The notes below the pieces were generated by a model. That model saw only the letters and a list, made by a program, of their open reading frames with translations, had not been told where the DNA came from and made no database searches. Made by a program: the position numbers and the translations under genes. A stretch of 64,000 bases of DNA from Geothrix limicola (GTDB lineage: Bacteria > Acidobacteriota > Holophagae > Holophagales > Holophagaceae): positions 186,001-250,000 of the forward strand of contig NZ_BSDE01000001.1 of NCBI RefSeq assembly GCF_030268085.1, in the 5' to 3' direction. Shown here piece after piece: positions 18,689-46,959 of the stretch (position 1 is its first letter; each line of letters starts with the position of its first letter).

Positions 18689-18722
18689 GGCCTGTCTTCG
18701 TTCATCCAACGTTCAGTAAAAC

Positions 18723-18748
18723 AAAAGGCCCGCGGATGCGGGCCTTTT
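18723..18748 (-). terminator. Terminator of rpsU
   Basis: AAAAGGCCCGC (18723-18733), loop GGAT and GCGGGCCTTTT (18738-18748) form a perfect 11-pair stem with a T-run when read on the minus strand. It lies between the rpsU stop (18776) and the mutS2 start (18688). Confidence 0.88.
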
Positions 18749-18775
18749 TCACGCGGTGCGGTGCACCGAGCCGTA

Positions 18776-30071: not shown

Positions 30072-31256
30072 TCAGGGCAGGTTGAGTTCCTTGCGCAGCA
30101 CCAGGGCGCAGGCGCCCTGGATGACGATTTCCGAGCCGATGGCGGAGAAGCAGACCTGGGTTTCGCGCGCCATCTCGGGGAGCACCCGGGCGCGGATCTC
30201 CGTGCGCATGGCTTCCAGGAGCGGTTCGCCGAAGAGGGTGGGCATGCCGGAGAGCACGATCTTGTGGATGTTGAGCACACCGGCGAGGCTGGCGGCCACC
30301 ACGCCCAGGTGGGTGCCCAGGTCGTGGACCAGGGCGCGGGCCTGGGGATCGCCGCTTTCGTTGAATTCCCTCAGGAGTTCGAGCGAGGCGCCCCTGGCGG
30401 CCAGGGCCCGGCCGAAGGGTGAGTCCGGTGCGCGCTCGGCCTCGGCTCGGACGAGGCGGAGCAGGGAAGGGGTGCTGGCCACGGTCTCGAGGCAGCCGTG
30501 GTTGCCGCAGGTGCAGGGCAGGCCGCCGCGCTCCACGCAGAGGTGGCCGACTTCACCGGCGCTGAAGCCCTCGCCCGTGTGGAGGTTGCCGCCGAGCACG
30601 ATGCCCGAGCCGATGCCCTCGCCGACCTTGATGAGCACCAGGCTCGGCGTGCGTCCATGGCCGCCGTAGGCGCATTCCGCCAGGGCCGCCACGTGGCTGT
30701 CGTTGGCGATGTGGATGGGGACGTTGAAGCGGGCCCCGAAGATCTCCTTCAGGTCCAGGTTCGTCCAGTCGCGGTTCACGGCCTGACGGATGATGCCCTT
30801 GTCGGGATCCACCGGGCCCGGGGTGCCGATGCCGATGCCCAGGATGGGCGCGGTGACCTGGGCCCAGAGTCCCTCCACCAGCCGGTGGGCCAGTTGGAGG
30901 GCCGCTTCGCCCTTGCGATCGCCCAGGGGCAGGGAGTGGCGCTGGAGCACGTCCCCCCGCAGGTTGACCAGGGCGCCGTGGAACTCCTCCTCGCCCAAGT
31001 CCACGCAGATGAGCTGGCGGGCGCCGGCATCGAAATCCACGTGGATGGGCGGCTTTCCGATGGTGGCGGGACCGAAGCCCGTCTCCCGGACGAGGCCCAG
31101 GCCCATGAGCTCGGTGACGATCTCCGATACGGTGGTGCGGGTCAGGCTCGTCATGCGGGCGATGTCCGCCCGGCTGATCTGATCATTGTGGTAGATGGTC
31201 TTCAACACGAGGGTCGTGTTGTGTTCTTTGGTGGCTTGGTGGGTGGCTTTTTTCAT
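30072..31256 (-). CDS. ROK-family transcriptional repressor (NagC/XylR-like)
   Basis: This 394-residue regulator has an N-terminal winged helix (ISRADIARMTSLTRTTVSEI then VTELMGLGLVRETG) and a ROK sugar-binding domain. The domain carries ICVDLGEEEFHGALVNLRGD, GIGIGTPGPVDPDKG, GEVGHLCVERGG and the zinc motif CTCGNHGCLE. In the NagC and XylR relatives, binding of a sugar or sugar phosphate releases DNA. The first ATP-site strand reads DLGEEEF instead of DxGGTK, so kinase activity is unlikely, as usual for repressors. It is divergent from the GH20 gene, and the spacer contains a TTAGT/ACTAA dyad that it may bind, which would make it the controller of the amino-sugar locus. Confidence 0.9.
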   Translation of the reverse strand: MKKATHQATKEHNTTLVLKTIYHNDQISRADIARMTSLTRTTVSEIVTELMGLGLVRETGFGPATIGKPPIHVDFDAGARQLICVDLGEEEFHGALVNLRGDVLQRHSLPLGDRKGEAALQLAHRLVEGLWAQVTAPILGIGIGTPGPVDPDKGIIRQAVNRDWTNLDLKEIFGARFNVPIHIANDSHVAALAECAYGGHGRTPSLVLIKVGEGIGSGIVLGGNLHTGEGFSAGEVGHLCVERGGLPCTCGNHGCLETVASTPSLLRLVRAEAERAPDSPFGRALAARGASLELLREFNESGDPQARALVHDLGTHLGVVAASLAGVLNIHKIVLSGMPTLFGEPLLEAMRTEIRARVLPEMARETQVCFSAIGSEIVIQGACALVLRKELNLP

Positions 31257-31379: not shown

Positions 31380-33158
31380 ATGAAAATTTTGTGGAACTTT
31401 TGGTCAACTAAATCTAAGCATAAGTTAATAAAGAATTTCGCTATTTCAATAATCACGGTTTTTTCTCTGACACCAGGGCTTCGGGCTCAGGCGATCCTCC
31501 CGATCCCCCGCGCGCTGACCCCCCTGGAGGGCACCTTCAGCCTGGGTCCGGGGACTCGTATTTCGGCCCGGGGTGAGGCCAAACCCCTGGGGGACCGCCT
31601 GAGGCAGTACCTCCGGCCGGCCACCGGGCTGGACCTTCCCCTGGTGGAGAAGGAAGGGCGGGGGGACATCGTCCTGGCCCTGGATCCCGCCCTCGGCGCC
31701 CTCGGTGCCGAAGGCTACCGGTTGGAGGTTCGCCCCGAGCGGGTGCGGATCCTGGCCCCCAAACCGGCCGGCCTCTTCTATGGCATCCAGAGCCTCCGCC
31801 AGCTGCTGCCGCCCCAGATCTTCCGGGAATCCGTGGTGCCGGGCCTGGCCTGGACGCTGCCCTGCGGGCTCATCGAAGACGGCCCCCGCTTCGCCTGGCG
31901 CGGCTCCCACATGGACGTCTCCCGCCACTTCATGCCGAAGGCCTTCGTCAAGAAGCACCTCGACCTGATGGCCCTGCACAAGCTCAACGTCTTCCACTGG
32001 CACCTCACCGATGACCAGGGCTGGCGCCTGGAGATCAAGAAATACCCCCGCCTGACGGAAGTTGGCGCCTGGCGCAAGGCCACGGTGATCCCCTGGGCCA
32101 ACCGGGACGACCACCAGACCCTGCTGCCCTACGACAACGTGCCCCACGGCGGCTTCTACACCCAGGACGACGTGCGCGAGATCGTGCGCTACGCCGCCGA
32201 CCGCTTCATCACCATCGTCCCCGAGATCGAGATGCCCGGCCACAGCAGCGCCGCCGTGGCAGCCTACCCGGAGCTGGGAAACTTCCCGGGCCAGAAGGTG
32301 GAAGTGGTGGGCAACTTCGGGGTCTTCCCCAGCACCTTCAACGTGAGCGACCGCACCCAGGCCTTCCTGCGGGATGTGCTGGACGAGGTGGTGGCCCTCT
32401 TCCCCTCGCACTACATCCACATCGGTGGCGACGAGTGCCCCAAGGGCGAGTGGGCCCGCAGCGAAGCCGCCCTGGCGCGGATGAAGGCCCTCGGCCTGGT
32501 GGACGCCAAGGCCACCCTGGCGGATCTGAAGCCGACCACCAACGAGAAAGGCGAATCGGTGGACCACCCCGCCCTGCTCAAGCTGCAGAGCTGGTTCATC
32601 CGCCAGGCCGCGCAGCACCTGGCTTCGAAGGGCCGCGCCATCATCGGTTGGGACGAGATCATGGAAGGCGGCATCGATCAGTCGGCGGCGATCATGGCCT
32701 GGAACCGCGGCGATATCGTCGCCCAGGCGGCGAAGGAGGGCCACGACGTGGTGGCCACGCCCATCGGCACCACCTACTTCGACCACTACCAGAGCAAGAA
32801 TCCCGAGCCATACACCATCGGCGGTCTGCTGACCCTGGAACAGGTCTACGCCTACGAGCCCATTCCGGCCGGCCTCGACGAAGCCGCGCGGCGGCACATC
32901 CTCGGCGCCCAGGCCCAAATCTGGACCGAGTACCAGCCCACGCCACGGCACGTGGAATACATGCTCTGGCCCCGCCTCGCGGCCCTGGCCGAAGTGCTGT
33001 GGTCCCCAAAGGAAGGCCGCGATACTGGGGCTTTCCTCTCGCGTCTCCGCGGTCACCTTCAGCGCCTGGATGTGCTGGACGTGAACTACCGCCCCCTGAA
33101 TGGTCCCAAGGGCTACGAGCTGCATGCCCAACCGGCGACCACCCCAACCGCCCAGTGA
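31380..33158 (+). CDS. Beta-N-acetylhexosaminidase (GH20), secreted
   Basis: This 592-residue exo-glycosidase removes terminal beta-GlcNAc or GalNAc from glycans and chito-oligosaccharides. It has a long Lys-rich signal peptide cut near LRAQA37, a GH20b-like N-terminal domain (40-165) and a TIM barrel. Catalytic motifs are FAWRGSHMDVSRHFM, HKLNVFHWHLTDDQGWRLEI, the substrate-assisted pair Asp351-Glu352 in HIGGDECPKGEW, and IIGWDEIMEGG. The first 30 codons are strikingly AT-rich compared with the rest. AAGGTG precedes ATG 31380. It is the first gene of a same-strand run ending with nagB. Confidence 0.93.
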   Translation: MKILWNFWSTKSKHKLIKNFAISIITVFSLTPGLRAQAILPIPRALTPLEGTFSLGPGTRISARGEAKPLGDRLRQYLRPATGLDLPLVEKEGRGDIVLALDPALGALGAEGYRLEVRPERVRILAPKPAGLFYGIQSLRQLLPPQIFRESVVPGLAWTLPCGLIEDGPRFAWRGSHMDVSRHFMPKAFVKKHLDLMALHKLNVFHWHLTDDQGWRLEIKKYPRLTEVGAWRKATVIPWANRDDHQTLLPYDNVPHGGFYTQDDVREIVRYAADRFITIVPEIEMPGHSSAAVAAYPELGNFPGQKVEVVGNFGVFPSTFNVSDRTQAFLRDVLDEVVALFPSHYIHIGGDECPKGEWARSEAALARMKALGLVDAKATLADLKPTTNEKGESVDHPALLKLQSWFIRQAAQHLASKGRAIIGWDEIMEGGIDQSAAIMAWNRGDIVAQAAKEGHDVVATPIGTTYFDHYQSKNPEPYTIGGLLTLEQVYAYEPIPAGLDEAARRHILGAQAQIWTEYQPTPRHVEYMLWPRLAALAEVLWSPKEGRDTGAFLSRLRGHLQRLDVLDVNYRPLNGPKGYELHAQPATTPTAQ

Positions 33159-33165
33159 GGTGAGC

Positions 33166-34581
33166 ATGTTCCACCACGAAACCTTTGCCAGCAGCCTTTT
33201 CAACGTTCCCCTGGACCAGCCGCTGGCGCTGGATCCGCAGTACCGCCCCCTCTCCCTGGGCGTCCGGAATTTCCGAAAGGCCCTGGAAGCCCACGGCAGC
33301 CACGAGACCGTGGTGGTGGGCCTGGAGCAGAACGCCGGGCCCGTGGCCCGCCTCGAACTGAAGGTCTTTCCCGCCGGTGCGGGGCGCGACGAGGACAACC
33401 TGCGCTACGTGTCGTGGATGCTGAACGGCCTCCTCTGGGTGTGCGGCGGATGGCGCGCCTCCGTGGGCGGACCCAAGGCCCTGTGCGAAGCCGTTGTCGC
33501 GGAGTACGGTGCCGACGGGCCCTGGAAATTCGAACGCGAGATCATGGGCCAGGCCTTCAACCGTCCCTTCGAAGTGGCGGTGATGGATCCTGCCGCCATT
33601 CCCCCCGCAGGCAAGGGCGCCCTGGCCCTGGGCGGAAACCTCACAGGCTGCCGCATCGGCTTCGATCTGGGTGCCAGCGACTACAAGGTGGCCGCGGTCA
33701 TCGATGGGGAGGTGGTCTTCAGCACCGAGATCCCCTGGACGCCCAAGACGGAAGCCGATCCTTCCTACCACTACAACTGCATCAACGAGGGCTTCAAGCT
33801 CGCGGCCTCACACCTGCCGCGCCTGGACGCCATCGGCGGTTCCTCCGCGGGCATCCTCGTGGACAACCAGGTGATGGTGGCCTCGCTCTTCCGCGCCGTG
33901 CCCAAGGAGCGGTTCGCCGCCGAGGTGAGCCCGATCTTTTTGAAGCTCCGAAAGGAATGGAACGTGCCGCTCGAAGTCATCAACGACGGCGACGTCACGG
34001 CCCTGGCCGGCGGCCTGTCGCTGGAGCAGAACGGCATCCTGGGCATCGCCCTGGGATCCAGCGAGGCCGTGGGTTTCCTCGATCGCAATGGGAAGATCAC
34101 CGGCTGGCTCAACGAGCTCGCCTTCAGCACCGTGGACGCCAATCCCACCGCGGGCACGGATGATTGGTCCGGCAATCCCGGCGTGGGCGCGGCCTACTTC
34201 TCCCAGCAGGCGGTGGACAAGCTGGCGGGCCCCGCGGGCCTCAGCTTCCCTTCGGACATGGGCCTGCCCGAGCGACTCAAGGAAGTGCAGGCGCTCATGG
34301 CCAAGGAAGATCCCGCGGCCCGCGCCATCTTCGAGACCATCGGCACCTACCTCGGCTACACGCTGCCCTGGTATGCCGAGTTCTACGACATGGAGCATGC
34401 CATGATCCTGGGCCGGGTGACCTCGGGCAAGGGCGGCGAGATCATCCTCGACAGGGCGAAGGCTGTCCTGGCGGCGGAATTCCCGGAACTCGCCAAGGCC
34501 ATCTCCATCTTCCTTCCCGACGAGAAGAGCCGCCGGGTGGGCCAGGCCGTGGCTGCGGCCAGCCTGCCCGCCCTCGGCTGA
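33166..34581 (+). CDS. ROK-family sugar kinase with N-terminal extension
   Basis: The protein has 471 residues: about 155 residues of unrecognised N-terminal alpha/beta sequence (LRYVSWMLNGLLWVCGGWRA, KFEREIMGQAF), then a ROK kinase fold. The ATP-site strand is RIGFDLGASDYKVAAVIDGE, followed by IGGSSAGILVDN, the Asp of VINDGDVTALAG, and ILGIALGSSEAVGFL. The zinc motif CxCGxxGCxE is absent. Position between GH20 and the exo-glucosaminidase suggests it phosphorylates GlcN or GlcNAc. GAGGTGA stands before ATG 33166, seven bases after the GH20 stop. Alternatively it could be a sugar-sensing, non-catalytic ROK protein. Confidence 0.75.
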   Translation: MFHHETFASSLFNVPLDQPLALDPQYRPLSLGVRNFRKALEAHGSHETVVVGLEQNAGPVARLELKVFPAGAGRDEDNLRYVSWMLNGLLWVCGGWRASVGGPKALCEAVVAEYGADGPWKFEREIMGQAFNRPFEVAVMDPAAIPPAGKGALALGGNLTGCRIGFDLGASDYKVAAVIDGEVVFSTEIPWTPKTEADPSYHYNCINEGFKLAASHLPRLDAIGGSSAGILVDNQVMVASLFRAVPKERFAAEVSPIFLKLRKEWNVPLEVINDGDVTALAGGLSLEQNGILGIALGSSEAVGFLDRNGKITGWLNELAFSTVDANPTAGTDDWSGNPGVGAAYFSQQAVDKLAGPAGLSFPSDMGLPERLKEVQALMAKEDPAARAIFETIGTYLGYTLPWYAEFYDMEHAMILGRVTSGKGGEIILDRAKAVLAAEFPELAKAISIFLPDEKSRRVGQAVAAASLPALG

Positions 34582-34607
34582 CCTCGACCGAATCCACGAG
34601 GAGACAC

Positions 34608-37202
34608 ATGTTCAAGACATGGATGGTGGTGGCGCTGGCGATGTTCGGGACGCTGCTCATGGGCGGCGCACCGGCCTCCGACACCACCGTCCTGGGCCGG
34701 GGTTGGGCCATCCGGGCCGCGTCCGTGGGGGGGGCGGCCCGGGATCTTTCGACTCCCGGCTTTGATACCAAGGCGTGGGTCCAGGCCCAGGTGCCCTGCA
34801 CGGTGCTGGGCGCGCTGGTGGACGCGGGTCGCTACAAGGATCCCTTTCTGGGGCAGAACCTGGACGCCATCTCCCCTGAGCCCTTTCAGGAAGCCTGGTG
34901 GTACCGCACGGAATTCCGGGTCAGCCCGACCCAGCTCAGGCAGCACACCCGCCTGCTGCTGGACGGCGTGAACTACCGGGCGGACGTGTGGCTGAACGGT
35001 AGGCAGATCGCCGGACAGGACGCGCTGACCGGTGCCTTCCGCACCTTCGATCTGGACATCACGAATCACCTGCAAGCAGGCGCCAACGCCCTCGCCATCC
35101 TCGTCCACCCGCCCCGCAAGGGCGACTTCACCATGGGCTTCGTGGACTGGAATCCCGAGCCGCCCGACCGCAACATGGGCCTCTTCCGGGAGGTGAAGCT
35201 GCGGCGATCTGGCGCCGTATCCCTCGAGAACGTCTACGTCCGCAGCGACGTGAACCTCCAGACCCTGAAGGAGGCCGCGCTCACCATCACGGCAGACCTC
35301 GTGAACCACGAGGGTCGGGTGGTTTCAGGCGAGGTCACCGGCGAGATCGAGACCCTTCATTTCAAGGTCGCCTACACGCTCCAGCCCCACGAGCGGAAAG
35401 CGCTCGTCTTCTCCCCGGAGCAGGTGCCGGGTCTGCGCATCCGGAATCCCCGACTCTGGTGGCCCGTGAACCTGGGCGAACCCGCGCTCTACACGCTGAA
35501 GCTCCGCGCGCGGGCAGGGCAGGGCGCGAGCGATGCCTTCAGCACGACCTTCGGCATCCGTCAGGTGGGCACCTATCTCAACGAACAGGGGCATCGCGGC
35601 TTCATCGTCAACGGGCGCAAGGTGCTCATCCGCGGTGGCGGCTGGGTGGACGACCTCTTCCTGCGCGAGGACCCTAGGAAGCTGGAAGCGCAGTTCCGAC
35701 GGATCAAGCACCTGAACCTGAACACTGTGCGTCTCGAGGGATTCTGGGGCAGCAGCCAGAAGCTGTACGAGCTCGCGGATCGCGCAGGCCTGCTGGTGAT
35801 GGTGGGCATCAGCTGCCAGTGGGAATGGGTCGAATACCTCGGCACGCCCCAGGATGACGAAACCTACGGTGCCGCGAAAACGCCGGCTGAGATCCAGCTG
35901 GTGGCCTCGTACCTGCGGGACCAGGTGCGCTGGCTGCGCAACCATCCGAGCATCCTCGTGTGGGTGCTGGGCAGCGACAAGCTGCCTTGGCCCGAGGCGG
36001 AAAAACAGTATGCCGCCGATCTGAAGGCGCTCGACCCGGCGCGCCCCTACCTGGCCGCCACCAAGGGCTGGACCAGCACCCTCAGCGGCCCCACGGGCGT
36101 GAAGATGCTCGGGCCCTACGATTACGTGACCCCCAACTACTGGTTCGAGGACACGAGCCACGGCGGCGCCTACGGCTTCAATACCGAAACGGGGCCCGGG
36201 CCGCAGATCCCACCCCTCTCCAGCCTCAAGAAGATGATTCCCGCAGCCGAGCTGTGGCCCATCAACAAGACCTGGGACTTCCACTGCGGGCGCCACGCCT
36301 TCAACACCCTCGATCGCTACCTGAACGCCTTCAACCAGCGCTACGGTGCGGCTTCCTCCGTGGAGGATTTCGCCTTCCGCGCCCAGGCCATGAACTACGA
36401 GGGTGTGCAGGCCATGTTCGAGGCCTTCGGCATCCGCCAACCCCAGGCCACGGGGGTGGTGCAGTGGATGCTCAACGCCTCCTGGCCCAAGCTCTACTGG
36501 CAGCTCTACGACTACGACCTGGTGCCCACCGGCGCCTACTACGGTGCCCGCAAGGGCTGCCAGCCGCGCACCGTGGCCTATGATCGGGCCGCGAAGACCG
36601 TGCACGTGGTGAACGACACGCGCGAGGCCCTGGAGAACGTCACTGTGAAAGCGCGGGTCTTTGACGCCGGCTCGGCCAAGGTCTTCGAGAAGGAGGTGCG
36701 AGTCTCCTGCCCCGCGGGCGCTTCTGCGTTGGCGCTGGACCTCAAGAGTTTGAAGCCCGCGACCTCGACGTACTTCCTCGACCTGCGCCTGAGCGGCAAG
36801 GGTGGGACCCTCGCGGACAACTTCTATTGGCTCTCCACCCAGCCGGAGACTTTGGACCAGGCCCATTCCAACTGGTTCATGACGCCCAACACCGCCTTCG
36901 CGGATCTTACGGGCCTGCGTTCGCTACCTCAGGCTCAGGTGAAGGTGACCTCCCGCTTTGAGAAGGGCGAAGGGATCATCACGTTGACCAATTCCTCGGA
37001 TCGCCTCGCCTTCTACCTGGACCTTGGGTTGGTCCGCGCCGGTTCCAAAAAACCGATCGCTTCGGCGCTCTGGGATGACAACGGCCTCTCCATCCCGCCC
37101 CACGAAACGCGCACCGTGCGGGTGCAGTTCGATCCCACAGACCTGCACGGCGAGCGGCCCCATCTCACCCTTCACGGCTGGAACGTGGTCCCCCGGGACT
37201 GA
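34608..37202 (+). CDS. Exo-beta-D-glucosaminidase (GH2, CsxA-like), secreted
   Basis: This 864-residue enzyme has a signal peptide ending GGAPAS. A GH2 sugar-binding domain (DLSTPGFDTKAWVQAQVPCT, WWYRTEFRV) and an Ig-like domain follow. The TIM barrel carries the family's general acid in VLGSDKLPW (Asp457) and the nucleophile in FNTETGPGPQIP (Glu527). Both motifs and their 70-residue spacing match chitosan-degrading exo-glucosaminidase rather than beta-galactosidase or beta-mannosidase. It should release GlcN from the non-reducing end of chitosan oligomers or GlcN-GlcNAc. GAGGAGA lies before ATG 34608. C-terminal beta-domains resemble those of CsxA. Confidence 0.87.
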   Translation: MFKTWMVVALAMFGTLLMGGAPASDTTVLGRGWAIRAASVGGAARDLSTPGFDTKAWVQAQVPCTVLGALVDAGRYKDPFLGQNLDAISPEPFQEAWWYRTEFRVSPTQLRQHTRLLLDGVNYRADVWLNGRQIAGQDALTGAFRTFDLDITNHLQAGANALAILVHPPRKGDFTMGFVDWNPEPPDRNMGLFREVKLRRSGAVSLENVYVRSDVNLQTLKEAALTITADLVNHEGRVVSGEVTGEIETLHFKVAYTLQPHERKALVFSPEQVPGLRIRNPRLWWPVNLGEPALYTLKLRARAGQGASDAFSTTFGIRQVGTYLNEQGHRGFIVNGRKVLIRGGGWVDDLFLREDPRKLEAQFRRIKHLNLNTVRLEGFWGSSQKLYELADRAGLLVMVGISCQWEWVEYLGTPQDDETYGAAKTPAEIQLVASYLRDQVRWLRNHPSILVWVLGSDKLPWPEAEKQYAADLKALDPARPYLAATKGWTSTLSGPTGVKMLGPYDYVTPNYWFEDTSHGGAYGFNTETGPGPQIPPLSSLKKMIPAAELWPINKTWDFHCGRHAFNTLDRYLNAFNQRYGAASSVEDFAFRAQAMNYEGVQAMFEAFGIRQPQATGVVQWMLNASWPKLYWQLYDYDLVPTGAYYGARKGCQPRTVAYDRAAKTVHVVNDTREALENVTVKARVFDAGSAKVFEKEVRVSCPAGASALALDLKSLKPATSTYFLDLRLSGKGGTLADNFYWLSTQPETLDQAHSNWFMTPNTAFADLTGLRSLPQAQVKVTSRFEKGEGIITLTNSSDRLAFYLDLGLVRAGSKKPIASALWDDNGLSIPPHETRTVRVQFDPTDLHGERPHLTLHGWNVVPRD

Positions 37203-37211
37203 GGAGCCTCC

Positions 37212-38477
37212 ATGCATCGCAGCCTCTTCAAGGTCGGCCTGATCATGCTGATCTTCGTCGTGATTTCTTTCGTGACGAACATCCTCGATCCCATGGGCAC
37301 GGACGTCCAGGCCTCCTTCCGCTTGACGGAAGCTCAGGTGGGCACACTGGCCTCGGCGCTCTTCCTCGCCTATGCGGTGATGTCCATTCCCGCAGGCCTG
37401 CTGGTGGAGCGCTTTTCGGCCAAGGCGGTCCTGATGGTGGCCTTCCTGCTGTCGGCGGCAGGCGCCCTGGCCTTCGCCGCGCGACCTTCGTACGCGGTGG
37501 CCCTTCCTTCGCTGTTCGTCATCGGGGTCGGCTTCGCCATGCTGCAGGTGGTCATCAACCCACTGCTGCGGATCTCGGGCGGCGAGGAGCACTACGCCTT
37601 CTTCGGCAACCTGTCCCAGATGATCTTCGCCCTGGGCTCCACCCTCAGCCCGCACCTCTACGTCTACCTCGTGAGCGGCATCAACGGGCGCCAGCAGGGC
37701 GGTCTCGTCGGCGTGCTCACACGGCTGGTGCCCGAGGGGCTGTCCTGGGTGGCCCTGTACTGGGTGTTCGCGGCGCTGCTCGCCGCCATGACGGTGGTGA
37801 TCGCCTGTGTGCGGCTGCCCAAGGTGGAACTGGTCGAGGACGAGAGGGTCGGCTCCTTCGAGACCATCCTCCTGCTCCTGAAGAACCGGACCGTCTGGCT
37901 CTACTTCGTCGGCATCGCCTGCTACGTGGGCACCGAGCAGGGGCTCGCCACCAAGATCAAGCCCTTCCTCATCAACTGCCACCAGGTGGATCCGGACCTG
38001 GCCAATCGCGTCGCGGTGTCGGGCTTCTGGGGCGCCATGACGCTGGGATGCGCCGTGGGACTGGTTCTCCTGAAGCTCTTCGACGCGAAGAAGATCCTCG
38101 TCGCCTTCATGGCGGGCGGCATGCTCACGCTGCTGGCGGCGCTCTTCGGCAACCGCCCGACGGCCCTGGTGGCCCTCCCCATGATGGGCTTCTGGTGCTC
38201 GGTGGGCTGGCCCCTGGTCTTCGCCCTGGCCCTGAACTCTCTGGACAGGCACCACGGCACCTTCGCGGGGATTCTCTGCACGGGTATCCTCGGCGGCGCC
38301 ATCCTGCCGCCTCTCATCGGCCTGATCGCGGACCATGCCGGGCCCATGGGGCTGCGCTACGGCCTGCTGGCGGTGCTGGGCACCTTCACCTACCTGCTCT
38401 TCATCGGCTTCTGGGCGAATCCCCTGACCAGCAACGCCACGCTGGGCAAGCAGGATGCCCAGCCCGAACGCGCGTGA
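37212..38477 (+). CDS. MFS sugar transporter of the FHS (FucP/NagP-like) type
   Basis: This 421-residue inner-membrane symporter has about 12 helices. FVVISFVTNILDPMGTDVQ near the N-terminus and FAMLQVVINPLLRISGGEEH in helix 4-5 correspond to the conserved N-P segment of fucose:H+ symporters, a subfamily that also contains the GlcNAc permease NagP. It should import a mono- or disaccharide released by the two neighbouring secreted glycosidases. It starts nine bases after the GH2 stop with GGAG upstream and is followed eight bases later by a second ROK kinase, so it belongs to the same operon. The substrate is inferred from context. Confidence 0.85.
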   Translation: MHRSLFKVGLIMLIFVVISFVTNILDPMGTDVQASFRLTEAQVGTLASALFLAYAVMSIPAGLLVERFSAKAVLMVAFLLSAAGALAFAARPSYAVALPSLFVIGVGFAMLQVVINPLLRISGGEEHYAFFGNLSQMIFALGSTLSPHLYVYLVSGINGRQQGGLVGVLTRLVPEGLSWVALYWVFAALLAAMTVVIACVRLPKVELVEDERVGSFETILLLLKNRTVWLYFVGIACYVGTEQGLATKIKPFLINCHQVDPDLANRVAVSGFWGAMTLGCAVGLVLLKLFDAKKILVAFMAGGMLTLLAALFGNRPTALVALPMMGFWCSVGWPLVFALALNSLDRHHGTFAGILCTGILGGAILPPLIGLIADHAGPMGLRYGLLAVLGTFTYLLFIGFWANPLTSNATLGKQDAQPERA

Positions 38478-38485
38478 GGTCGGAC

Positions 38486-39349
38486 ATGGCGAATCGAACC
38501 TTGATCGGTGTGGACCTGGGCGGCACGAACATCCGCGCGGGCCGGGTGGAGAACCACCGCATCGTGAAGCTGGCGGCCCGCCCCACACCGGCGAAGGCCG
38601 AGGCGGATGTGGTGGTGGCGGACCTCGTCCGCAGCATCGAAGACGTGCTGAGCCCCGAGGTGTCCGCCATCGGCATCGGCGTGCCCAGCGTGGTGGACGT
38701 GGAGCAGGGCATCGTCTACGACGTGGAGAACATCCCTTCCTGGCGGGAAGTGGCGCTCAAGCGGATCCTGGAAGACCGCTTCCAGTTACCCGTTCGCGTC
38801 AACAACGACGCCAACTGCTTCGCCCTCGGCGAGTACCACTTCGGCAAGGGGCGTGGATCCAAGAGCCTGGTGGGCCTCATCGTGGGCACGGGGTTGGGCG
38901 CCGGGCTCGTCCTCGACGGCCGCCTCTATTCGGGCGTGAACTGCGGGGCCGGCGAGATCGGCAGCCTCCCTTACCGGGATCACACCTACGAATACTACGT
39001 GAGCGGACCGCGCTTCCAGCGGGAGCACGGACGCAACGGGGGTCAGTTGTACGAGGCCGCGCTGCGCGGCGAGGCCGAGGCGCTTCAGATCTTCGAGGCC
39101 TTCGGGCGGGATCTGGGGAAGGCCATCGCCCTCGCAATCTACGCCTATGACCCGGACCGGATCCTCCTCGGCGGTTCGGTATCCAAGGCTTATCCCTTCT
39201 TCCGCGAGACGGTCTGGGCCGAGCTGCGGACCTTCGCCTTCCAGCAGTCCCTGAAGCGGCTCTCCATCGAGGTGAGCGAGGAACCCCAGATCGCCATCCT
39301 CGGCGCCGCGGCCCTTTGCCTGGACGTTCCTGCGGCCATATCGATATAA
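38486..39349 (+). CDS. ROK-family hexokinase (glucokinase/glucosamine-kinase-like)
   Basis: The protein has 287 residues. The ATP-binding strand LIGVDLGGTNIRAGRV, VSAIGIGVPSVVDVEQGIVY, catalytic Asp in RVNNDANCFALGEYHFGKGR and GLIVGTGLGAGLVLDG are all intact. The glutamate of GAGEIGSLPYRDHTYEYY is kept, but the cysteine zinc motif that normally follows is missing. In contrast to the longer ROK protein at 33166, this one looks fully active as a kinase. Encoded beside an importer and before nagB, it is the best candidate to make GlcN-6-phosphate; glucose is the alternative substrate. ATG 38486 has GAGGT upstream. Confidence 0.88.
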   Translation: MANRTLIGVDLGGTNIRAGRVENHRIVKLAARPTPAKAEADVVVADLVRSIEDVLSPEVSAIGIGVPSVVDVEQGIVYDVENIPSWREVALKRILEDRFQLPVRVNNDANCFALGEYHFGKGRGSKSLVGLIVGTGLGAGLVLDGRLYSGVNCGAGEIGSLPYRDHTYEYYVSGPRFQREHGRNGGQLYEAALRGEAEALQIFEAFGRDLGKAIALAIYAYDPDRILLGGSVSKAYPFFRETVWAELRTFAFQQSLKRLSIEVSEEPQIAILGAAALCLDVPAAISI

Positions 39350-39350
39350 T
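39321..39350 (+). promoter_or_regulatory. Possible internal promoter before the sugar porter
   Basis: TGGACG (39321-39326) and a perfect TATAAT (39345-39350) are separated by 18 bases, inside an abruptly AT-rich stretch covering the end of the ROK kinase gene and the 43-base spacer. It could give the porter and nagB separate expression from the upstream glycosidases. Confidence 0.4.
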
Positions 39351-39401
39351 ATTGATACATCATTAAAATTACTGGAACCTGACTGAACCGAGGTGATGCC
39401 C

Positions 39402-41192
39402 ATGACCACACCCGCCCCCGACGCCTCTCCGGCCCTGGTCCGGAACCTCCGCTACCTGCTGTTCATCGCGGGACTGGGAGGGCTCCTCTACGGCATCGAT
39501 GTCGGCATCATCGCGGGCGCGCTCCCGTACCTGGAGGCCACTTCGGGGCTCACGAGCAACCAGCTCTCGATCATCGTGGCGGCCGTGCTGCTGGGCAGCG
39601 TGATCTCAACACTTTTCGCCGGCATGCTGGCCGATCTCATGGGCCGGAAGAAGCTCATGATCCTCAGCGGCTTATGCTTCGTGCTGAGCATTCCCATGAT
39701 CGCGTTGGCGCATGGCTTCGGCCCGCTGGTGCTGGGCCGCCTCCTGCAGGGGGTGAGTGCGGGCCTGGTGGGCGTGGTGGTGCCGCTCTACCTGGCGGAA
39801 TGCCTGGATGCCTCCAACCGGGGCAGGGGAACCGGCGTCTTCCAGTGGCTGCTGACCCTCGGCATCTTCGCGGCGGCCCTCATCGCCTGGGGTTTCAGCT
39901 TCAAGGTGGAACACCTCGAGAAGGCCGGGAACGCCGAGGCCCTCTTCGCCTTCAAGGATCTGGCCTGGCGCAGCATCTTCTGGGTGAGCATCCTCCCGGG
40001 GCTGTTCTTCGTCATCGGGGCCTTCTTCGTCGCGGAGAGCCCCCGCTGGCTCCACCGTCGGGGCCGCAAGGAAGAAGCCCGCGCCGCGCTGCGCAAGACG
40101 CGGACCGAGGCAGTGACCGAGATCGAACTGAAGGAGATGGACGAAAGCGCCCGGGCTGCCGAGAAGAGCATGGGCGAGAAGGCGAAGGAAAGCCTCCTGA
40201 GCCGGATGTACGTCATCCCCTTCCTGCTGGCCTGCGTCATCCTCGCCTGCAACCAGGCCACGGGCATCAACAGCGTCATCGGCTACAACGCGACGATCCT
40301 CATCCAGGCGGGCCTCGGCGACAACGCGGCCCACCTGGGTTATGTGCTGCTCACCCTCGTCAACTTCCTCATGACCATGGTGGCGGTCGCCCTGGTGGAC
40401 AAGAAGGGACGCAAATTCCTGCTCAGCGTCGGCAGTGCCGGCATCATCGTGGCCCTGCTGGGAACGGGCCTCCTCTTCCGGCGCACGGAGCAGCACCGCG
40501 TGGATGTGGCTCCTGCCATCCAGGCCCTGGTGGACGGGGACCAGTCCGTGACCCTGAAATACACGCCGGAGGCTGCGGACCACCTGCTGGGAAGCGCAGG
40601 CGCGGCGGGCGCGAAGGTGGCGGGAAAGCCCTCCACGCTGATCGTCATCTACAGCTATGGCGATTTCCGGGCCGCCACCAAGGTGGTGCGCTCCACGGAC
40701 CTCAGCGCGGCCATCGCCATCACCCGCGAATCCTGCGTGCCCAAGGACAAGGCGGGCGCCCTGGCGGCGCGCATCACGAACCCCACGGCCGACGCCCAGG
40801 CGGCCCGCACGGCGCCGCTCAAGATCGAGGCGGCCCTCATCACGCCCGTGCCCAGCGCCGCCAACGGTTGGCTCGTCGCCCTGTTCACCTTCATCTTCAT
40901 CGCCTTCTTCGCCATGGGGCCGGGCGTGTGCGTCTGGCTGGCCCTGTCGGAGCTGATGCCCACGCGCATCCGCTCGAACGGCATGAGCATCGCGCTGCTC
41001 ATCAACCAGGCCGTGTCCACCACCATCGCCGCCGTCTTTCTCCCCACTGTGGGCAAGTACGGATACGGCACGATGTTCTTCCTCTTCGCCGGCTTCACGG
41101 TCGTCTACTTCATCACGGCCTTCTTCTTCCTCCCCGAGACCAAGGGCAAAACGCTGGAAGAGATCGAGGCCCACTTCGTCGGCAAGAAGTGA
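39402..41192 (+). CDS. MFS sugar porter with an extracytoplasmic insertion
   Basis: This 596-residue inner-membrane protein is of the sugar porter (XylE/GalP/GLUT) type: FIAGLGGLLYGIDVGIIAGA (helix 1), ADLMGRKKLMI, PLYLAECLDASNRGRGTG, NQATGINSVIGYN, SELMPTRIRSNGMSIA and the C-terminal PETKGKTLEEIE. The family is normally 450-500 residues. The excess is a block of about 127 residues (about 360-487) between helices 9 and 10, facing the periplasm and rich in Ala/Val with no recognised domain. ATG 39402 is preferred to GTG 39393 and ATG 39396 because of the spacing to GAGGTGA. The substrate is probably a hexose or hexosamine. Confidence 0.87.
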   Translation: MTTPAPDASPALVRNLRYLLFIAGLGGLLYGIDVGIIAGALPYLEATSGLTSNQLSIIVAAVLLGSVISTLFAGMLADLMGRKKLMILSGLCFVLSIPMIALAHGFGPLVLGRLLQGVSAGLVGVVVPLYLAECLDASNRGRGTGVFQWLLTLGIFAAALIAWGFSFKVEHLEKAGNAEALFAFKDLAWRSIFWVSILPGLFFVIGAFFVAESPRWLHRRGRKEEARAALRKTRTEAVTEIELKEMDESARAAEKSMGEKAKESLLSRMYVIPFLLACVILACNQATGINSVIGYNATILIQAGLGDNAAHLGYVLLTLVNFLMTMVAVALVDKKGRKFLLSVGSAGIIVALLGTGLLFRRTEQHRVDVAPAIQALVDGDQSVTLKYTPEAADHLLGSAGAAGAKVAGKPSTLIVIYSYGDFRAATKVVRSTDLSAAIAITRESCVPKDKAGALAARITNPTADAQAARTAPLKIEAALITPVPSAANGWLVALFTFIFIAFFAMGPGVCVWLALSELMPTRIRSNGMSIALLINQAVSTTIAAVFLPTVGKYGYGTMFFLFAGFTVVYFITAFFFLPETKGKTLEEIEAHFVGKK

Positions 41193-41229
41193 AGGCCCAG
41201 GTTCTGCCGTCCGTCCCTAAGGAACCCTC

Positions 41230-42027
41230 ATGGAAGTGATCATTCTCCCGAACCAGCAGAAGGCCGCCTACCTCGTGGCACAAATTCTCGCGAAGGAGCT
41301 GAAGGCCCATCCCAGGCTGGTGCTGGGCATGGCCACAGGCCGGACGATGGAGCCTGTCTACCGCCTGCTGGTGGACATGCATCAGAAGGAAGGCCTGGAT
41401 TTCTCGCTCTGCTCGACGTTCAACCTGGATGAATACATCGGCATCCCGGCCGATCATCCCTGTTCGTACCGGCACTACATGAACGAACTCCTCTTCGACC
41501 GCGTCAACATCGCCAAGGCGAACACCCACCTTCCCGATGGCATGGCATCCGATCTCGGGGCCGAGTGCCTGCGGTACGAGGCCGCCATCACCCAGGCCGG
41601 CGGCATTGATCTTCAGCTGGTGGGCATCGGCAGCGATGGCCACATCGGGTTCAACGAACCCCTGTCCTCGCTGCGTTCGCGCACGCGCGAAAAGGCGCTC
41701 ACACCGGCCACCCGCGAGCAGAATGCGCCCATGTTCGGGGGTGATCCCGCCAACGTGCCGCGTCGTGCCATCACCATGGGGGTGGGGACCATTCTCGATT
41801 CGCGCCGCTGCCTCATGCTCGTCACGGGCAAATCCAAGGCCACCATTCTGGCCAAAGCGGTCGAGGGTCCCATCTCCGCGATGGTGACGGCCTCAGCCCT
41901 GCAGCTGCACCCCCGCTGCCAGGTGGTGGTGGATGAGGAAGCCGCCTCGGAACTGAAGGAGATCGAGTACCACCGCTGGGTCTTCGCCAATGAGCCTGAG
42001 TGGGCGGAATTCCAGAACCTGGTTTGA
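41230..42027 (+). CDS. nagB: Glucosamine-6-phosphate deaminase
   Basis: This 265-residue cytosolic aldose-ketose isomerase/deaminase converts GlcN-6-phosphate to fructose-6-phosphate and ammonia, the entry into glycolysis. Landmarks are LVLGMATGRTMEPVYR (phosphate loop), CSTFNLDEYIGI with the catalytic Asp67/Glu68, and GIGSDGHIGFNEP with Asp136 and the ring-opening His138. TMGVGTILDSRRCLMLVTGK follows near the C-terminus. The length is standard. It closes the amino-sugar run and is followed by a strong terminator. No nagA gene accompanies it in this window, which is unusual for a NagB locus. Confidence 0.96.
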   Translation: MEVIILPNQQKAAYLVAQILAKELKAHPRLVLGMATGRTMEPVYRLLVDMHQKEGLDFSLCSTFNLDEYIGIPADHPCSYRHYMNELLFDRVNIAKANTHLPDGMASDLGAECLRYEAAITQAGGIDLQLVGIGSDGHIGFNEPLSSLRSRTREKALTPATREQNAPMFGGDPANVPRRAITMGVGTILDSRRCLMLVTGKSKATILAKAVEGPISAMVTASALQLHPRCQVVVDEEAASELKEIEYHRWVFANEPEWAEFQNLV

Positions 42028-42052
42028 GATCCCAGGAAGGTCCAAAAGAAAG

Positions 42053-42080
42053 AGGCGCTGATCTCCGCAGATCAGCGCCT
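42053..42080. terminator. Bidirectional terminator between nagB and the PIG-L gene
   Basis: AGGCGCTGATCT (42053-42064) pairs perfectly with AGATCAGCGCCT (42069-42080) around CCGC. A run of T follows on the plus strand, and an A-rich stretch precedes it, giving a U-rich tail for the minus-strand transcript. Confidence 0.92.
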
Positions 42081-42106
42081 TTTTCACTGGGGGTTGAGAT
42101 TCTGGA

Positions 42107-42967
42107 TTACTTGAAGAGTCCCGCGAGATCACCGTCCCTGGCGATGACCTGACCGGCGCGCGGAGCGGTATCGAAGGCGCCCATCAGCCAGTCGCGAACC
42201 CGATAAAGGGTGGCGAAGGGGAAGGTCGGTGCCGCCCCGCCCTGGCCACCCACGATCTCTCCGCCTCGGCGCACATTGTCCGCCATCCAGGCGGGCAGGG
42301 TGAGGTGGTACGGGTTGCGTACCACTTCGCCTTTGTGGAAGGAAATGGCGGCGACCAGATCCGCCACTTCTTCGGGGGTGGATTCGATGACCAGGTTGGG
42401 TTCCGCCATGGCGCGCCAGAATTCGGTTTCGACGATCCGGCACTTGAAGCTGGGGCCAAGGGTCTTCAGGGCATCGGTGACGAGGAAATGGGTGCCGATG
42501 TGGGTGCTGTTCCAATCCTGGTCATGGGGCATGAACAAGACGCTTGGCTGGTGATCGATGAGGATCTTGGCGATGATGCCGACTGCCGCGGCCCACTCCG
42601 CGGGATTACCATTCCGCGTTTTGGGGTTGATGTTGAGCAGGCCATTGGGGCAGGTGGGAACGAGCTTGAATCCCAAATAATTGCATGCGCCCTGCATTTC
42701 TTCGAAACGCGCAGCCTGGCGGTCCGCGCGGCTTCCTTGAGTCACGGCCACGACGCGCACGTCGTAACCGAGTTCGCGTCGCAGGCGGAGGGGCAGCGCT
42801 CCGATGATGGATTCGTCGTCGGGATGGGGGGAGAACACGAGTGCCCTCGGTGCATCTTCGCGGAGCACCGGCGCCGCAGCGGGCGGAATATCACCGAGAG
42901 GCACCGATCGTGCCTCTTCCATCAATTGCGCAATGCCGGTGACGTACGATGTGAAGGGTTGGCTCAT
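42107..42967 (-). CDS. PIG-L family sugar deacetylase
   Basis: This 286-residue zinc hydrolase is of the LmbE/PIG-L type, which removes N-acetyl groups from GlcNAc-containing sugars. The zinc motif FSPHPDDESIIGALPLRL has His48, Asp50 and Asp51. The second motif MPHDQDWNSTHIGTH supplies His156 and His160. No signal peptide is seen, so it should act in the cytoplasm. Linkage to nagB, two ROK kinases and exo-glucosaminidase suggests free GlcNAc or diacetylchitobiose as substrate, as for archaeal Dac. Other PIG-L substrates (GlcNAc-malate, mycothiol-like conjugates) are possible. It converges on nagB with only a terminator between. Confidence 0.88.
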   Translation of the reverse strand: MSQPFTSYVTGIAQLMEEARSVPLGDIPPAAAPVLREDAPRALVFSPHPDDESIIGALPLRLRRELGYDVRVVAVTQGSRADRQAARFEEMQGACNYLGFKLVPTCPNGLLNINPKTRNGNPAEWAAAVGIIAKILIDHQPSVLFMPHDQDWNSTHIGTHFLVTDALKTLGPSFKCRIVETEFWRAMAEPNLVIESTPEEVADLVAAISFHKGEVVRNPYHLTLPAWMADNVRRGGEIVGGQGGAAPTFPFATLYRVRDWLMGAFDTAPRAGQVIARDGDLAGLFK

Positions 42968-43583: not shown

Positions 43584-43734
43584 GTGACCCGATTTCTACA
43601 AACTTTGACCTGTCTCCTTTCTTGTTCCTCAGGGGGCTGAGCGTAATTTATTGAGAGTCCTTCGTTGAATCGGGTCTTGTTTTGTGGAACGGATTCGCCG
43701 CGCGGGATTTCAAGGGTGACCCGATTCCTACAAA
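43584..43734. repeat. Degenerate 19-base repeat pair with an inverted partner
   Basis: GTGACCCGATTTCTACAAA (43584-43602) recurs as GTGACCCGATTCCTACAAA (43716-43734), with one mismatch. Between them GAATCGGGTC (43667-43676) is the exact inverse of GACCCGATTC (43718-43727). A further CGGGTCTTGTT is shared by 43514-43524 and 43671-43681. The mix of direct and inverted copies looks like decayed ends of a transposable element or a MITE-like cluster. Confidence 0.55.
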
Positions 43735-43832
43735 AAGTTATCGGAACACCCTTGGTTAATTCGAATATAGAGCGTAGTGTTGTATGTGATATTTCAGAAT
43801 GTGTGTTTCCTAAGAGTCGTTCCGGAGGGGTC

Positions 43833-45575
43833 ATGCCCAGCTTCACCCGCATTCATCTGGGAGTCGCCGATTGGCTGATTCTCATCCTCTACTTCTCATT
43901 CGTGGTGGGGATCGGAGTCGCCCTCAAGCGGCGCATGCGGAATTCGACGGATTTCTTCCTGTCGGGTCATGCGATCCCCGCCTGGATCGCGGGCCTGGCC
44001 TTCCTGAGCGCGAACCTGGGCGCGCAGGAGGTCATGGGCATGGCGGCCTCGGGCGCGAAATACGGCATGATGACCGCCCACTTTTACTGGGTGGGCGCCG
44101 TGCCGGCCATGGTCTTCGTCGGCGTCTTCATGATGCCCTTCTACTACGGATCGAAGGCCCGCAGCGTGCCGGAATACCTGAAGCTGCGCTACGACGAGAA
44201 GACGCGCACCTTCAACGCCTTCAGCTTCGCCATCATGACGGTCTTTTCCAGCGGCATCTCGATGTACGCCATGGCCAAGCTGTTGAACCTGCTCCTGGGC
44301 TGGAACTTCAACGTCTCGCTCTGGATCAGCGCGGCCATCGTGCTGGCCTACATCTTCCTCGGCGGCCTGACGTCGGCCATCTACAACGAGGTGATGCAGT
44401 TCTTCCTCATCGTGCTGGGCTTTGCGCCGCTCGTCTTCCTCGGCCTGAAGGACTGCGGTGGATGGGCGGGGCTCGTGCAGCGCCTCAACCTCGTCGCGGG
44501 GCAGAGCCACAACCTGCAGGGCCAGGCCTACGCGGGCGGCGCCTGGGTGAGCACCTGGCGGCACATGGGCACGCCCGGCGCGAACCCCATGGGCGTCGAG
44601 TGGTTCGGCATGGCCATGGGCCTGGGCTTCGTGCTGTCCTTCGGCTACTGGTGCACGGATTTCCTCGTCGTGCAGCGGGCCATGGTGGCCGAGAACGAAA
44701 CGGCGGCGCGCAAGGTGCCGCTCATCGCCGCCGTGCCCAAGATGCTTTTCCCCTTCCTCGTCATCCTGCCGGGCATGATCGCCATCGGCCTCACCTACAA
44801 GAGCGGCCAGACGGGCTTCGCGCTGCCGGTGAAGGGCGCGTCCTACGACTACGACATGACGATCCCGCTCATGCTCAAGCACTACTTCCCCACGGGGCTG
44901 CTGGGCCTGGGCCTGACGGCGCTGATGGCCAGCTTCATGAGCGGCATGGCGGGCAACGTGACGGCCTTCAACACGGTGTGGACCTACGACATCTACCAGA
45001 ACCACATCGCGAAGGACAAGAGCGACAGCCACTACCTCTGGATGGGCCGCATGGCGACGGTGGGCGGCATCCTGCTGTCGATTCTCACGGCCTACATGGC
45101 GGTGCACTTCAACAACATCATGGACATGCTGCAGCTGATCTTCGCGTTCGTGAACGCGCCGCTCTTCGCGACCTTCCTGCTGGGCATGTTCTGGAAGCGG
45201 ACGACGGGCCACGGCGCCTTCTTCGGCCTGCTCTCGGGCACGGCGGCGGCGGCGCTCCACCACGGACTGACCGTTCCCATCGGCGCCGAGAGCCTCTTCA
45301 AGGGCGGCTGGATCGGCCATGTGCTGCACGTCTACCCGAGCGAAATGGCGCAGAACTTCTGGACGGCCATCTGGTCCTGGAGCACCTGCTTCATCGTCAC
45401 GATTCTGATCAGCCTCGCGACCCGCCGCACGAAGAGCGACGAGGAGCTGCGCGGCCTCGTCTACAGCCTCACCGAGCGGCACGCCGAAGGGCACCTGCCC
45501 TGGTACAAGCGGCCGCTGTACCTGGGCCTCGTCATCCTCGCCATCGCCGTGGTTCTGAACATCCTCTTCGCCTAA
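43833..45575 (+). CDS. Sodium/solute symporter (SSS family), probably galactose
   Basis: This 580-residue inner-membrane protein has about 14 helices and the SSS layout: FVVGIGVALKRRMRNSTDFF then LSGHAIPAWIAGLAFLSANL near the start, SVPEYLKLRYDEKTRTFNAF, IVLAYIFLGGLTSAIYNEVM, ALMASFMSGMAGNVTAFNTV (the sodium-site helix) and FLLGMFWKRTTGHGAFFGLL. The family includes the Vibrio Na+/galactose symporter, and the next enzymes are galK and galT, so galactose uptake is the best inference. ATG 43833 with GGAGG upstream is chosen; an in-frame ATG at 43665 would add a leader read from the repeat-bearing spacer. Confidence 0.9.
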   Translation: MPSFTRIHLGVADWLILILYFSFVVGIGVALKRRMRNSTDFFLSGHAIPAWIAGLAFLSANLGAQEVMGMAASGAKYGMMTAHFYWVGAVPAMVFVGVFMMPFYYGSKARSVPEYLKLRYDEKTRTFNAFSFAIMTVFSSGISMYAMAKLLNLLLGWNFNVSLWISAAIVLAYIFLGGLTSAIYNEVMQFFLIVLGFAPLVFLGLKDCGGWAGLVQRLNLVAGQSHNLQGQAYAGGAWVSTWRHMGTPGANPMGVEWFGMAMGLGFVLSFGYWCTDFLVVQRAMVAENETAARKVPLIAAVPKMLFPFLVILPGMIAIGLTYKSGQTGFALPVKGASYDYDMTIPLMLKHYFPTGLLGLGLTALMASFMSGMAGNVTAFNTVWTYDIYQNHIAKDKSDSHYLWMGRMATVGGILLSILTAYMAVHFNNIMDMLQLIFAFVNAPLFATFLLGMFWKRTTGHGAFFGLLSGTAAAALHHGLTVPIGAESLFKGGWIGHVLHVYPSEMAQNFWTAIWSWSTCFIVTILISLATRRTKSDEELRGLVYSLTERHAEGHLPWYKRPLYLGLVILAIAVVLNILFA

Positions 45576-45583
45576 GGTGACGC

Positions 45584-45790
45584 ATGAACTTCGACCTTCG
45601 TGTTCCCATTGGAATCCTCTTCACCCTCTTCGGAACCATCCTCGTGGTTCTGGGGCTCACCACCTCCCAGGAGCTGTACCAGGCCTCGCTGGGCATTAAC
45701 GTGAACCTGGACTGGGGCCTCGCACTGCTCGTCTTTGGACTGGTGATGCTGGGCTTCGTATTCCGCTCCAACCGAAAGGCACATCGATGA
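45584..45790 (+). CDS. Two-helix small membrane protein in the gal operon
   Basis: The protein has 68 residues and two hydrophobic helices (VPIGILFTLFGTILVVLGL and WGLALLVFGLVMLGFVF) joined by a short loop (TTSQELYQASLGINVNLD), ending in a basic tail. It starts eight bases after the symporter stop, and its TGA overlaps the galK ATG (ATGA). This fixed position suggests a symporter accessory subunit or scaffold, but no family is recognised, and the idea rests on linkage and membrane topology only. Confidence 0.8.
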   Translation: MNFDLRVPIGILFTLFGTILVVLGLTTSQELYQASLGINVNLDWGLALLVFGLVMLGFVFRSNRKAHR

Positions 45791-46959
45791 TGACGACCAT
45801 GGCTAAGGTCGGCGCTGCGCGCATCCGCGAATCCTTCCTCGAACATTTCGGTGAGCCGGAGCTCATCGTGCGGGGGCCGGGGCGGGTGAACCTCATCGGT
45901 GAGCACACCGACTACAACCTGGGTTTCGTCCTGCCCGCCGCCGTGGACAAGGCCATCTGGCTGGCCATGAGCCCGCGCGCGGACGGTCGCTGCCGCTTCC
46001 ACAGCGTGGACCTCAATGAATCCTGCGAGGTGGACCTGAAGGATCTGGCCCGCTCCGAACACCATTGGGCCAACTACCTTCTGGGGGTGATCACCGAATT
46101 CCTGGCGGATGGGCGTTCGTTGGGTGGCGTGGACTGCGCGTTCGGCGGAGATGTGCCCATCGGCAGCGGGATGTCCTCCTCGGCGGCGCTGGAATGCGGC
46201 TTCGCCTTCGGCCTCAACGAACTCTTCGATCTGGGGTATGACCGTCTGGCCCTGGCGCGGCTGGGGCAGCGGGCCGAGAACCGCTACGTGGGTGTGGCCT
46301 GTGGAATCATGGACCAGTTCGCCTCGCTGCTGGGACGGGAAGGGCGCCTGATCCGACTGGACTGCCGGGATCTCTCCTTCGAATACGCGCCCTTCGAGCG
46401 GTCGGATCTGCGGGTCGTGCTATGCGATTCCCGGGTCCGTCGCACCTTGGCGGGCAGCGAATACAACGTGCGCCGAACCCAGTGCGAAACCGGCGTCGCG
46501 CTCCTCGCAGGCCAGTATCCGGGCGTGAAGAGCCTCCGGGATGTGACGCCCGCCATGCTTCAGGCCCACCGGAAGGAGCTGAATCCCGTGGTCTTCCGCC
46601 GCTGCGATTATGTCGTGCGCGAAAACGGCCGCGTGCTCGAGGCATGCGAGGCCCTGGGACGATCCGATTTCGAAGCATTCGGAGCCCTCATGAACGCCAG
46701 CCACGACGGGCTTCGGGACGACTATGAAGTCTCCTGCGCGGAGCTGGACATCCTCGTGAATGGGGCCCGGACCATTCCGGGCGTGCTGGGCAGCCGCATG
46801 ATGGGCGCCGGATTCGGGGGGTGCACGATCAGCCTGGTGGAGGAGGGCGCCCTCACCGACTTCTCCGTGTGCATGGCCGACATCTACCGGAAGGGCCTCG
46901 GCACGGAACCGAGGATCCATGAGTGCCGCCTCACGGGCGGAACGGCTTCGGTCGAATGA
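45787..46959 (+). CDS. galK: Galactokinase
   Basis: This 390-residue GHMP kinase phosphorylates galactose at C1, the first Leloir step. The galactose-binding signature [20 protein letters not shown], the ATP loop [20 protein letters not shown] and the C-terminal [17 protein letters not shown] are all present and unbroken. Catalytic Asp lies in [11 protein letters not shown]. The start ATG 45787 overlaps the small membrane protein stop. Two in-frame Met residues follow closely, so the exact first residue is uncertain by a few codons. GalT follows. Confidence 0.95.

Follow-up and report, generated by a model that had tools for sequence, protein, structure and literature searches.

NagA catalyses the textbook second step in the use of N-acetylglucosamine (GlcNAc), acting on GlcNAc-6-phosphate between the kinase NagK and the deaminase NagB, and its absence from a genome is read as an inability to use GlcNAc. 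In Thermococcus, the deacetylase Dac acts on diacetylchitobiose and the exo-glucosaminidase GlmA then cuts the product (excerpt of PMC6566704). The PIG-L/LmbE superfamily is defined by an HxDD plus H metal motif (excerpt of PMC4101496). The subject here is an amino sugar locus of Geothrix limicola (Acidobacteriota), which lies in a window of 64,000 nucleotides, that is, the whole stretch of DNA that was analysed (positions 186,001 to 250,000 of contig NZ_BSDE01000001.1; G000:C1:186001-250000), in a host genome of 4.23 Mb that is 97.11% complete. The locus has a nagB gene (41230-42027, plus strand), a gene for a predicted cytoplasmic PIG-L deacetylase that converges on it (42107-42967, minus strand) and a gene for an unusual putative kinase, designated KinX (33166-34581, plus strand). 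The locus probably serves the use of β-linked GlcNAc and glucosamine (GlcN) from chitin, partly deacetylated chitin or similar glycans. It is likely that the ordinary NagK-NagA-NagB order is kept in it and that the deacetylase has been displaced by an unrelated metal hydrolase, PIG-L, a scheme for which we infer every activity, substrate, reaction order and localisation. That PIG-L stands in place of NagA is well supported by context.

The first line of evidence is the absence of nagA from the host. Genes are referred to as over cut-off when they exceed 225.65 bits to TIGR00221 (nagA) or 236.9 bits to TIGR00502 (nagB). No TIGR00221 member over cut-off was found in the whole host genome, where the best match reaches 26 bits. 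Three weak matches (21.5-26 bits) were rejected as a hidden nagA because, read by eye, they are an imidazolonepropionase-like exported amidohydrolase, an isoaspartyl-dipeptidase-like protein and a YtcJ-like amidohydrolase. Strictly, a nagA might lie in the roughly 3% of the genome that is absent. The same search finds over-cut-off nagA in 96 of 297 Acidobacteriota genomes, and so it works in this phylum.

The second line is the conserved linkage of KinX, PIG-L and nagB. At least 321 relatives of the PIG-L gene were found on genome contigs, and the best 80 loci were compared; by their record labels these are mainly from Verrucomicrobiota, with some from Kiritimatiellota, Lentisphaerota, Myxococcota, Armatimonadota, Cyanobacteria and Paracoccus. 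KinX is present in 42 of the 80 loci, in 37 of them directly upstream of PIG-L on the same strand, and nagB is present in eight (one only 29% identical). A second genome of the genus (G244) carries the same locus as the window, G097 has KinX, PIG-L and nagB in that order on one strand, and KinX-PIG-L pairs are also found in G125, G175 and a second locus of the host genome (9-bp spacing). Three loci of Limisphaerales type (L039, L071 and L089) combine nagB, GH20, KinX, PIG-L and a sugar porter in other orders, and in L047, from the isolate Paracoccus onubensis, and L103 PIG-L is followed by nagB.

The third line is that PIG-L and nagA occupy the same operon slot. Among 194 Verrucomicrobiota genomes, PIG-L is present in 30, KinX in 131, over-cut-off nagB in 152 and over-cut-off nagA in 90. 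The close downstream same-strand neighbour of the 135 KinX genes in these genomes is PIG-L in 12 cases (gap −21 to 216 bp) and nagA in 13 (15 to 87 bp), and PIG-L and nagA never occur together within 20 kb of KinX (0 of 135 genes). The KinX-PIG-L run continues into nagB in seven of the 12 cases. Of the 30 PIG-L genes, 14 have a same-strand nagB no more than 1 kb away; there is no such case among the 150 listed nagA genes. Similarly, 18 of the 78 nagB genes in the 297 Acidobacteriota genomes have nagA within 15 kb and three have this PIG-L, but none has both. The genome-level counts, for which the Fisher tests carry no correction for kinship (a caution against the proposed replacement), point the same way in part: over-cut-off nagA is found in 1 of 22 nagB-bearing Verrucomicrobiota genomes with PIG-L versus 84 of 131 without it (p = 7.8e-8), and nagB tracks KinX (123 of 131 KinX genomes versus 30 of 63 others; p = 8e-13). 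Of the 80 genomes behind the compared PIG-L loci, 50 were searched for both genes, and these have nagA over cut-off in one case and at E ≤ 1e-25 in 30, and nagB over cut-off in 31. A preliminary description of the locus, made from the window alone, had proposed that PIG-L replaces NagA and had noted the lack of nagA within 64 kb; the absence of nagA extends genome-wide, PIG-L is next to nagB in the same genus, the same family and several other lineages, and these two observations together with the common slot behind the KinX family uphold the replacement.

A tree of KinX (89 rows, unrooted) requires one change between PIG-L-linked and nagA-linked rows. All 14 nagA rows, one of which comes from a partial 30% match (L148), fall in a 33-row clade with five PIG-L rows (support 99/97); the unrooted tree is compatible with displacement in either direction. 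Where one kinase family is followed by either NagA or PIG-L, the simplest reading is that the kinase makes the same product in both settings, and hence that PIG-L most likely takes GlcNAc-6-phosphate.

Several other arrangements of these genes were seen. A KinX gene with no PIG-L stands immediately before a second nagB of G097 (L027, 9744-11967), and the other PIG-L of that genome (L022) is located elsewhere, beside a carboxyl transferase gene. L036, L037 and L041 have further plus-strand genes at matching positions after KinX-PIG-L; in L036, where their families were scanned, they encode a DegT-type aminotransferase and a GFO/IDH oxidoreductase, a hint that the amino sugar has a different fate in that locus. 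A cytidine/guanine-deaminase-type gene (family scanned in L045) is found just 3′ of PIG-L in L038, L045, L054, L061 and L079.

KinX itself matches no Pfam or NCBIfam family at E ≤ 0.001, the ROK family PF00480 included, and a single-sequence search of the PDB gave matches at E 0.016 and 0.24 only. Its AlphaFold model (mean predicted local distance difference test score, pLDDT, 87.9) matches ROK glucokinases as well as GlcNAc and N-acetylmannosamine kinases (best Foldseek E 1.2e-17; template modelling score by target up to 0.78), and KinX is predicted to be a ROK-fold GlcNAc kinase that falls outside the Pfam ROK model. In a profile comparison (probability 89), the ROK Asn-Asp corresponds to N273-D274 and the Glu of the ROK motif ExGH to E317, while the structural zinc motif CxCGxxGC is missing (the aligned stretch is DWSGNPGV) and the His of ExGH is replaced by Phe. 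The corresponding residues of PsNagK, N104, D105 and E154, either contact GlcNAc or serve as the base (excerpt of PMC10031466). Across KinX rows partnered by PIG-L, nagA and nagB (52, 14 and 17, respectively), 82 positions are near-invariant, among them D167, N273-D274 and E317. As far as sequence can indicate, the catalytic motifs common to KinX with either deacetylase partner favour a phosphorylated substrate for PIG-L.

The PIG-L protein has H48-x-D50-D51 and H156, invariant in 33 of 33 aligned sequences. The arginines R61, R83, R87, R118, R217 and R256 are likewise invariant in this alignment. A single-sequence PDB search found no match at E ≤ 0.01. Its structural model (pLDDT 93.1) matches Dac, the bacillithiol and mycothiol deacetylases BshB and MshB, and teicoplanin deacetylase in comparisons by Foldseek and VIA-align. 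The top Foldseek match is the Pyrococcus diacetylchitobiose deacetylase (E 8.6e-11), whereas VIA-align puts BshB first (Z 21.8, 2.7 Å over 202 residues) and Dac behind it (Z 20.6, 3.0 Å over 204 residues), so that the fold does not choose the substrate.

Taken as a pathway, exported GH20 and GH2 glycoside hydrolases would release GlcNAc and GlcN, which two carriers of the major facilitator superfamily (MFS) would import. KinX would convert GlcNAc to GlcNAc-6-phosphate, PIG-L rather than NagA would deacetylate this to GlcN-6-phosphate, and NagB would form fructose-6-phosphate. GlcN that has been imported may be the substrate of the second ROK kinase, or this enzyme may work in parallel.

The second KinX-PIG-L pair of the host is found at L021 (G000:C8:1-19999), 3467-18970, along with GH109-type, DUF3472 and GH101 genes, a sugar porter, a lacto-/galacto-N-biose phosphorylase and a ROK regulator. 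The two copies are 69% identical for KinX and 60% for PIG-L. L021 is probably a core-1 O-glycan locus, and its mucin-type Gal-GalNAc gene set implies that the second copy probably serves N-acetylgalactosamine (GalNAc). A broader proposal, on which the balance is about even, is that KinX and PIG-L form an unrecognised two-enzyme module for N-acetylhexosamines, in which KinX is a kinase outside the ROK family as described and PIG-L deacetylates the sugar 6-phosphate, a substrate that the literature consulted does not give for its superfamily, and interchanges with NagA in the operon slot, and that one genome keeps two copies, for GlcNAc in the window and for GalNAc in the GH101/GH109/galacto-N-biose phosphorylase locus.

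A number of observations weigh against the replacement of NagA by PIG-L after a phosphorylation step. At six KinX positions (16, 236, 286, 367, 396 and 463), the PIG-L-linked and nagA-linked groups have different residues, and position 236 is near the probable sugar site, four residues before the invariant S240. Across the Verrucomicrobiota genomes PIG-L tracks neither KinX (18 of 30 versus 113 of 164; p = 0.40) nor nagB (22 of 30 versus 131 of 164; p = 0.47). Its complementarity with nagA is weaker when weaker nagA-like matches are counted: at E ≤ 1e-40, these are found in 11 of 30 genomes with PIG-L versus 124 of 164 others among all 194 genomes (p = 5.6e-5). In nagB-bearing Acidobacteriota, nagA is missing from three of five genomes with PIG-L versus 10 of 39 without it (p = 0.14); thus 10 of the 13 nagB-positive, nagA-negative genomes also lack this PIG-L, and the absence of nagA was discarded as a proof in its own right. 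No KinX is seen in 38 of the 80 PIG-L loci, seven of which have less than 1.5 kb upstream, and the neighbours scanned in KinX-less loci (such as MnmE, asparagine synthase, ADP-ribosylglycohydrolase and an acyltransferase) are unrelated to amino sugars. Finally, the PIG-L gene of the window is convergent with nagB and 7.5 kb away from KinX.

The rival that survives best, although we think it unlikely, is that deacetylation comes first: PIG-L would produce GlcN from free GlcNAc or from chitobiose after import, and KinX, the other ROK protein or both would make GlcN-6-phosphate for NagB in a Dac-like scheme. The preliminary description favoured such a Thermococcus-like order. It gains from the Foldseek ranking of the Pyrococcus enzyme, from the two kinases and the exo-glucosaminidase of the locus, and from the excerpt of PMC4101496, which names no PIG-L/LmbE enzyme acting on GlcNAc-6-phosphate, and it would be restored if KinX changed specificity along with its partner. 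However, BshB matches the model as well or better in VIA-align, and the slot that PIG-L shares with nagA, whose product acts on a phosphorylated sugar, favours phosphorylation first, as do the common kinase motifs. The exo-glucosaminidase also looks exported by eye, whereas PIG-L appears cytoplasmic and could not supply it as Dac supplies GlmA, so that the Thermococcus-like order is not supported.

It is less probable still, to the point of being distinctly improbable, that PIG-L lies outside the pathway and happens to adjoin nagB, being a biosynthetic deacetylase for a thiol cofactor (BshB/MshB-like) or for another product, with NagB serving only imported GlcN released by GH2: the convergent orientation, the nagA-negative Acidobacteriota without this PIG-L, the KinX-less loci with unrelated neighbours and the four other PIG-L genes of the host genome speak for it, but the bacillithiol deacetylase BshB1 was rejected as an identity for PIG-L (28.5 bits to TIGR04001 versus a cut-off of 182.5), KinX-PIG-L-nagB operons and repeated cassettes are found in several phyla, and, in Acidobacteriota, where the subfamily is rare (5 of 297 genomes at E ≤ 1e-20), over-cut-off nagB accompanies it in five of five genomes versus 39 of 292 others (p = 5.8e-5).

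The replacement of NagA by PIG-L thus remains the preferred reading, and the remaining genes of the locus can be set around it. The plus-strand run extends from 31380 to 42027 and comprises GH20, KinX, GH2, an MFS carrier, the second ROK protein, a sugar porter and nagB, with two genes facing away upstream. One of these, divergent from GH20, encodes a ROK-family transcriptional regulator with winged helix and ROK parts (30072-31256, minus strand; PF00480 177.8 bits, MarR/HTH_24 domains). Upstream of it is a probable TonB-dependent-receptor-like outer-membrane protein (25987-29256, minus strand; open frame of 1089 residues), with a tblastn likeness of 26% to L023 13756-16302, a frame with a CarboxypepD_reg domain. 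The GH20 β-N-acetylhexosaminidase (31380-33158, plus strand; PF00728 378.7 bits, PF02838) and the GH2 exo-β-D-glucosaminidase of CsxA type (34608-37202, plus strand; 529 bits to PDB 2VZS, Ig_GlcNase domain) are probably exported, since by eye both begin with a signal-peptide-like sequence, whereas PIG-L does not. The GSD and ET stretches of the GH2 catalytic site align with those of 2VZS, which we take to be the ones holding the catalytic D469 and E541. The first importer (37212-38477, plus strand) is FucP/GluP/NagP-like (PF07690 80 bits; TIGR01272, TIGR00885 and NagP models below their cut-offs). The second ROK protein (38486-39349, plus strand; PF00480 154.5 bits) is a putative sugar kinase without the ROK zinc motif, the best solved relative of which is the GlcNAc kinase 7p7i (E 1.4e-27). 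The sugar-porter MFS importer (39393-41192, plus strand; PF00083 298.6 bits, TIGR00879 above cut-off) has relatives beside KinX-PIG-L in L021, L039, L071 and L089. About 130 extra residues (approximately 363-490) separate its two Pfam-matched parts, and the relatives at these four loci are of similar length. NagB scores 281.1 bits to TIGR00502 and 210 bits to 2bkv, with the DGHIGFNEP stretch aligned, and PIG-L scores 50.8 bits to PF02585 (cut-off 28.2). Beyond the locus, at 43665-46959 of the window, are a sodium:solute symporter and a galactokinase-like frame, the latter identified by eye.

The gene content given in the preliminary description is borne out, with GH20, the CsxA-like GH2, two ROK-fold proteins, two MFS importers, nagB and PIG-L all present and open between 31.4 and 43.0 kb. 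Its span of 33166-42967 holds the other genes but begins just after GH20, and its two ROK proteins are so by fold, although one of them, the KinX partner of PIG-L, is missed by the Pfam ROK model. Among the 21 genomes listed for the host genus, this PIG-L is found in two, nagB in three and nagA in three; the amino sugar set is an accessory trait there.

A search of the open-licence PMC literature, including nagB or glucosamine-6-phosphate deaminase in combination with PIG-L or LmbE, found no description of a replacement of NagA by PIG-L. If the proposal is true, pathway predictions are wrong, but correctably so, for many Verrucomicrobiota and Acidobacteriota, groups that are prominent in soils, sediments and water. 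KinX and this PIG-L subfamily would gain testable functions, and a sugar phosphate would be added to the substrates of the PIG-L superfamily, which in the literature consulted are conjugates and oligosaccharides.

The locus shares features with several described systems and differs from each. Like the canonical NagK-NagA-NagB pathway, it brings together a kinase, a deacetylase and an ordinary NagB with importers and a ROK regulator, but it has a PIG-L-fold deacetylase instead of the CE9 amidohydrolase NagA, and a KinX that the Pfam ROK model does not recognise and that has no ROK zinc motif. With BshB and MshB it shares the PIG-L fold and the HxDD plus H metal motif, but the window protein is far below the BshB1 cut-off and is linked to sugar catabolism. 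Fusions of the NF002557/PRK02122 type (‘glucosamine-6-phosphate deaminase-like protein’) likewise join NagB to a PIG-L domain; in the window, by contrast, the genes are separate, and NagB and PIG-L reach 245.9 and 18.1 bits, respectively, against a cut-off of 384. NagB-PIG-L fusions of about 640-750 residues are found beside KinX in eight Verrucomicrobiota loci (L153-L156, L158, L160, L163 and L165), and the HPDD metal motif is absent from the PIG-L part in seven of these eight and in 12 of all 17 fusions checked. The fused domain is a distant PIG-L, to which a profile built from the unfused PIG-L proteins gives only weak matches. Finally, a PIG-L-fold deacetylase and an exo-glucosaminidase are common to the window and the Thermococcus chitin pathway (ChiA, Dac and GlmA). 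However, the exo-glucosaminidase of the window is a GH2 enzyme that looks exported, whereas GlmA is a GH35 enzyme acting after Dac; a GH20 is also present, and the PIG-L protein is 15-21% identical to Dac structures and belongs to a family that swaps with NagA.

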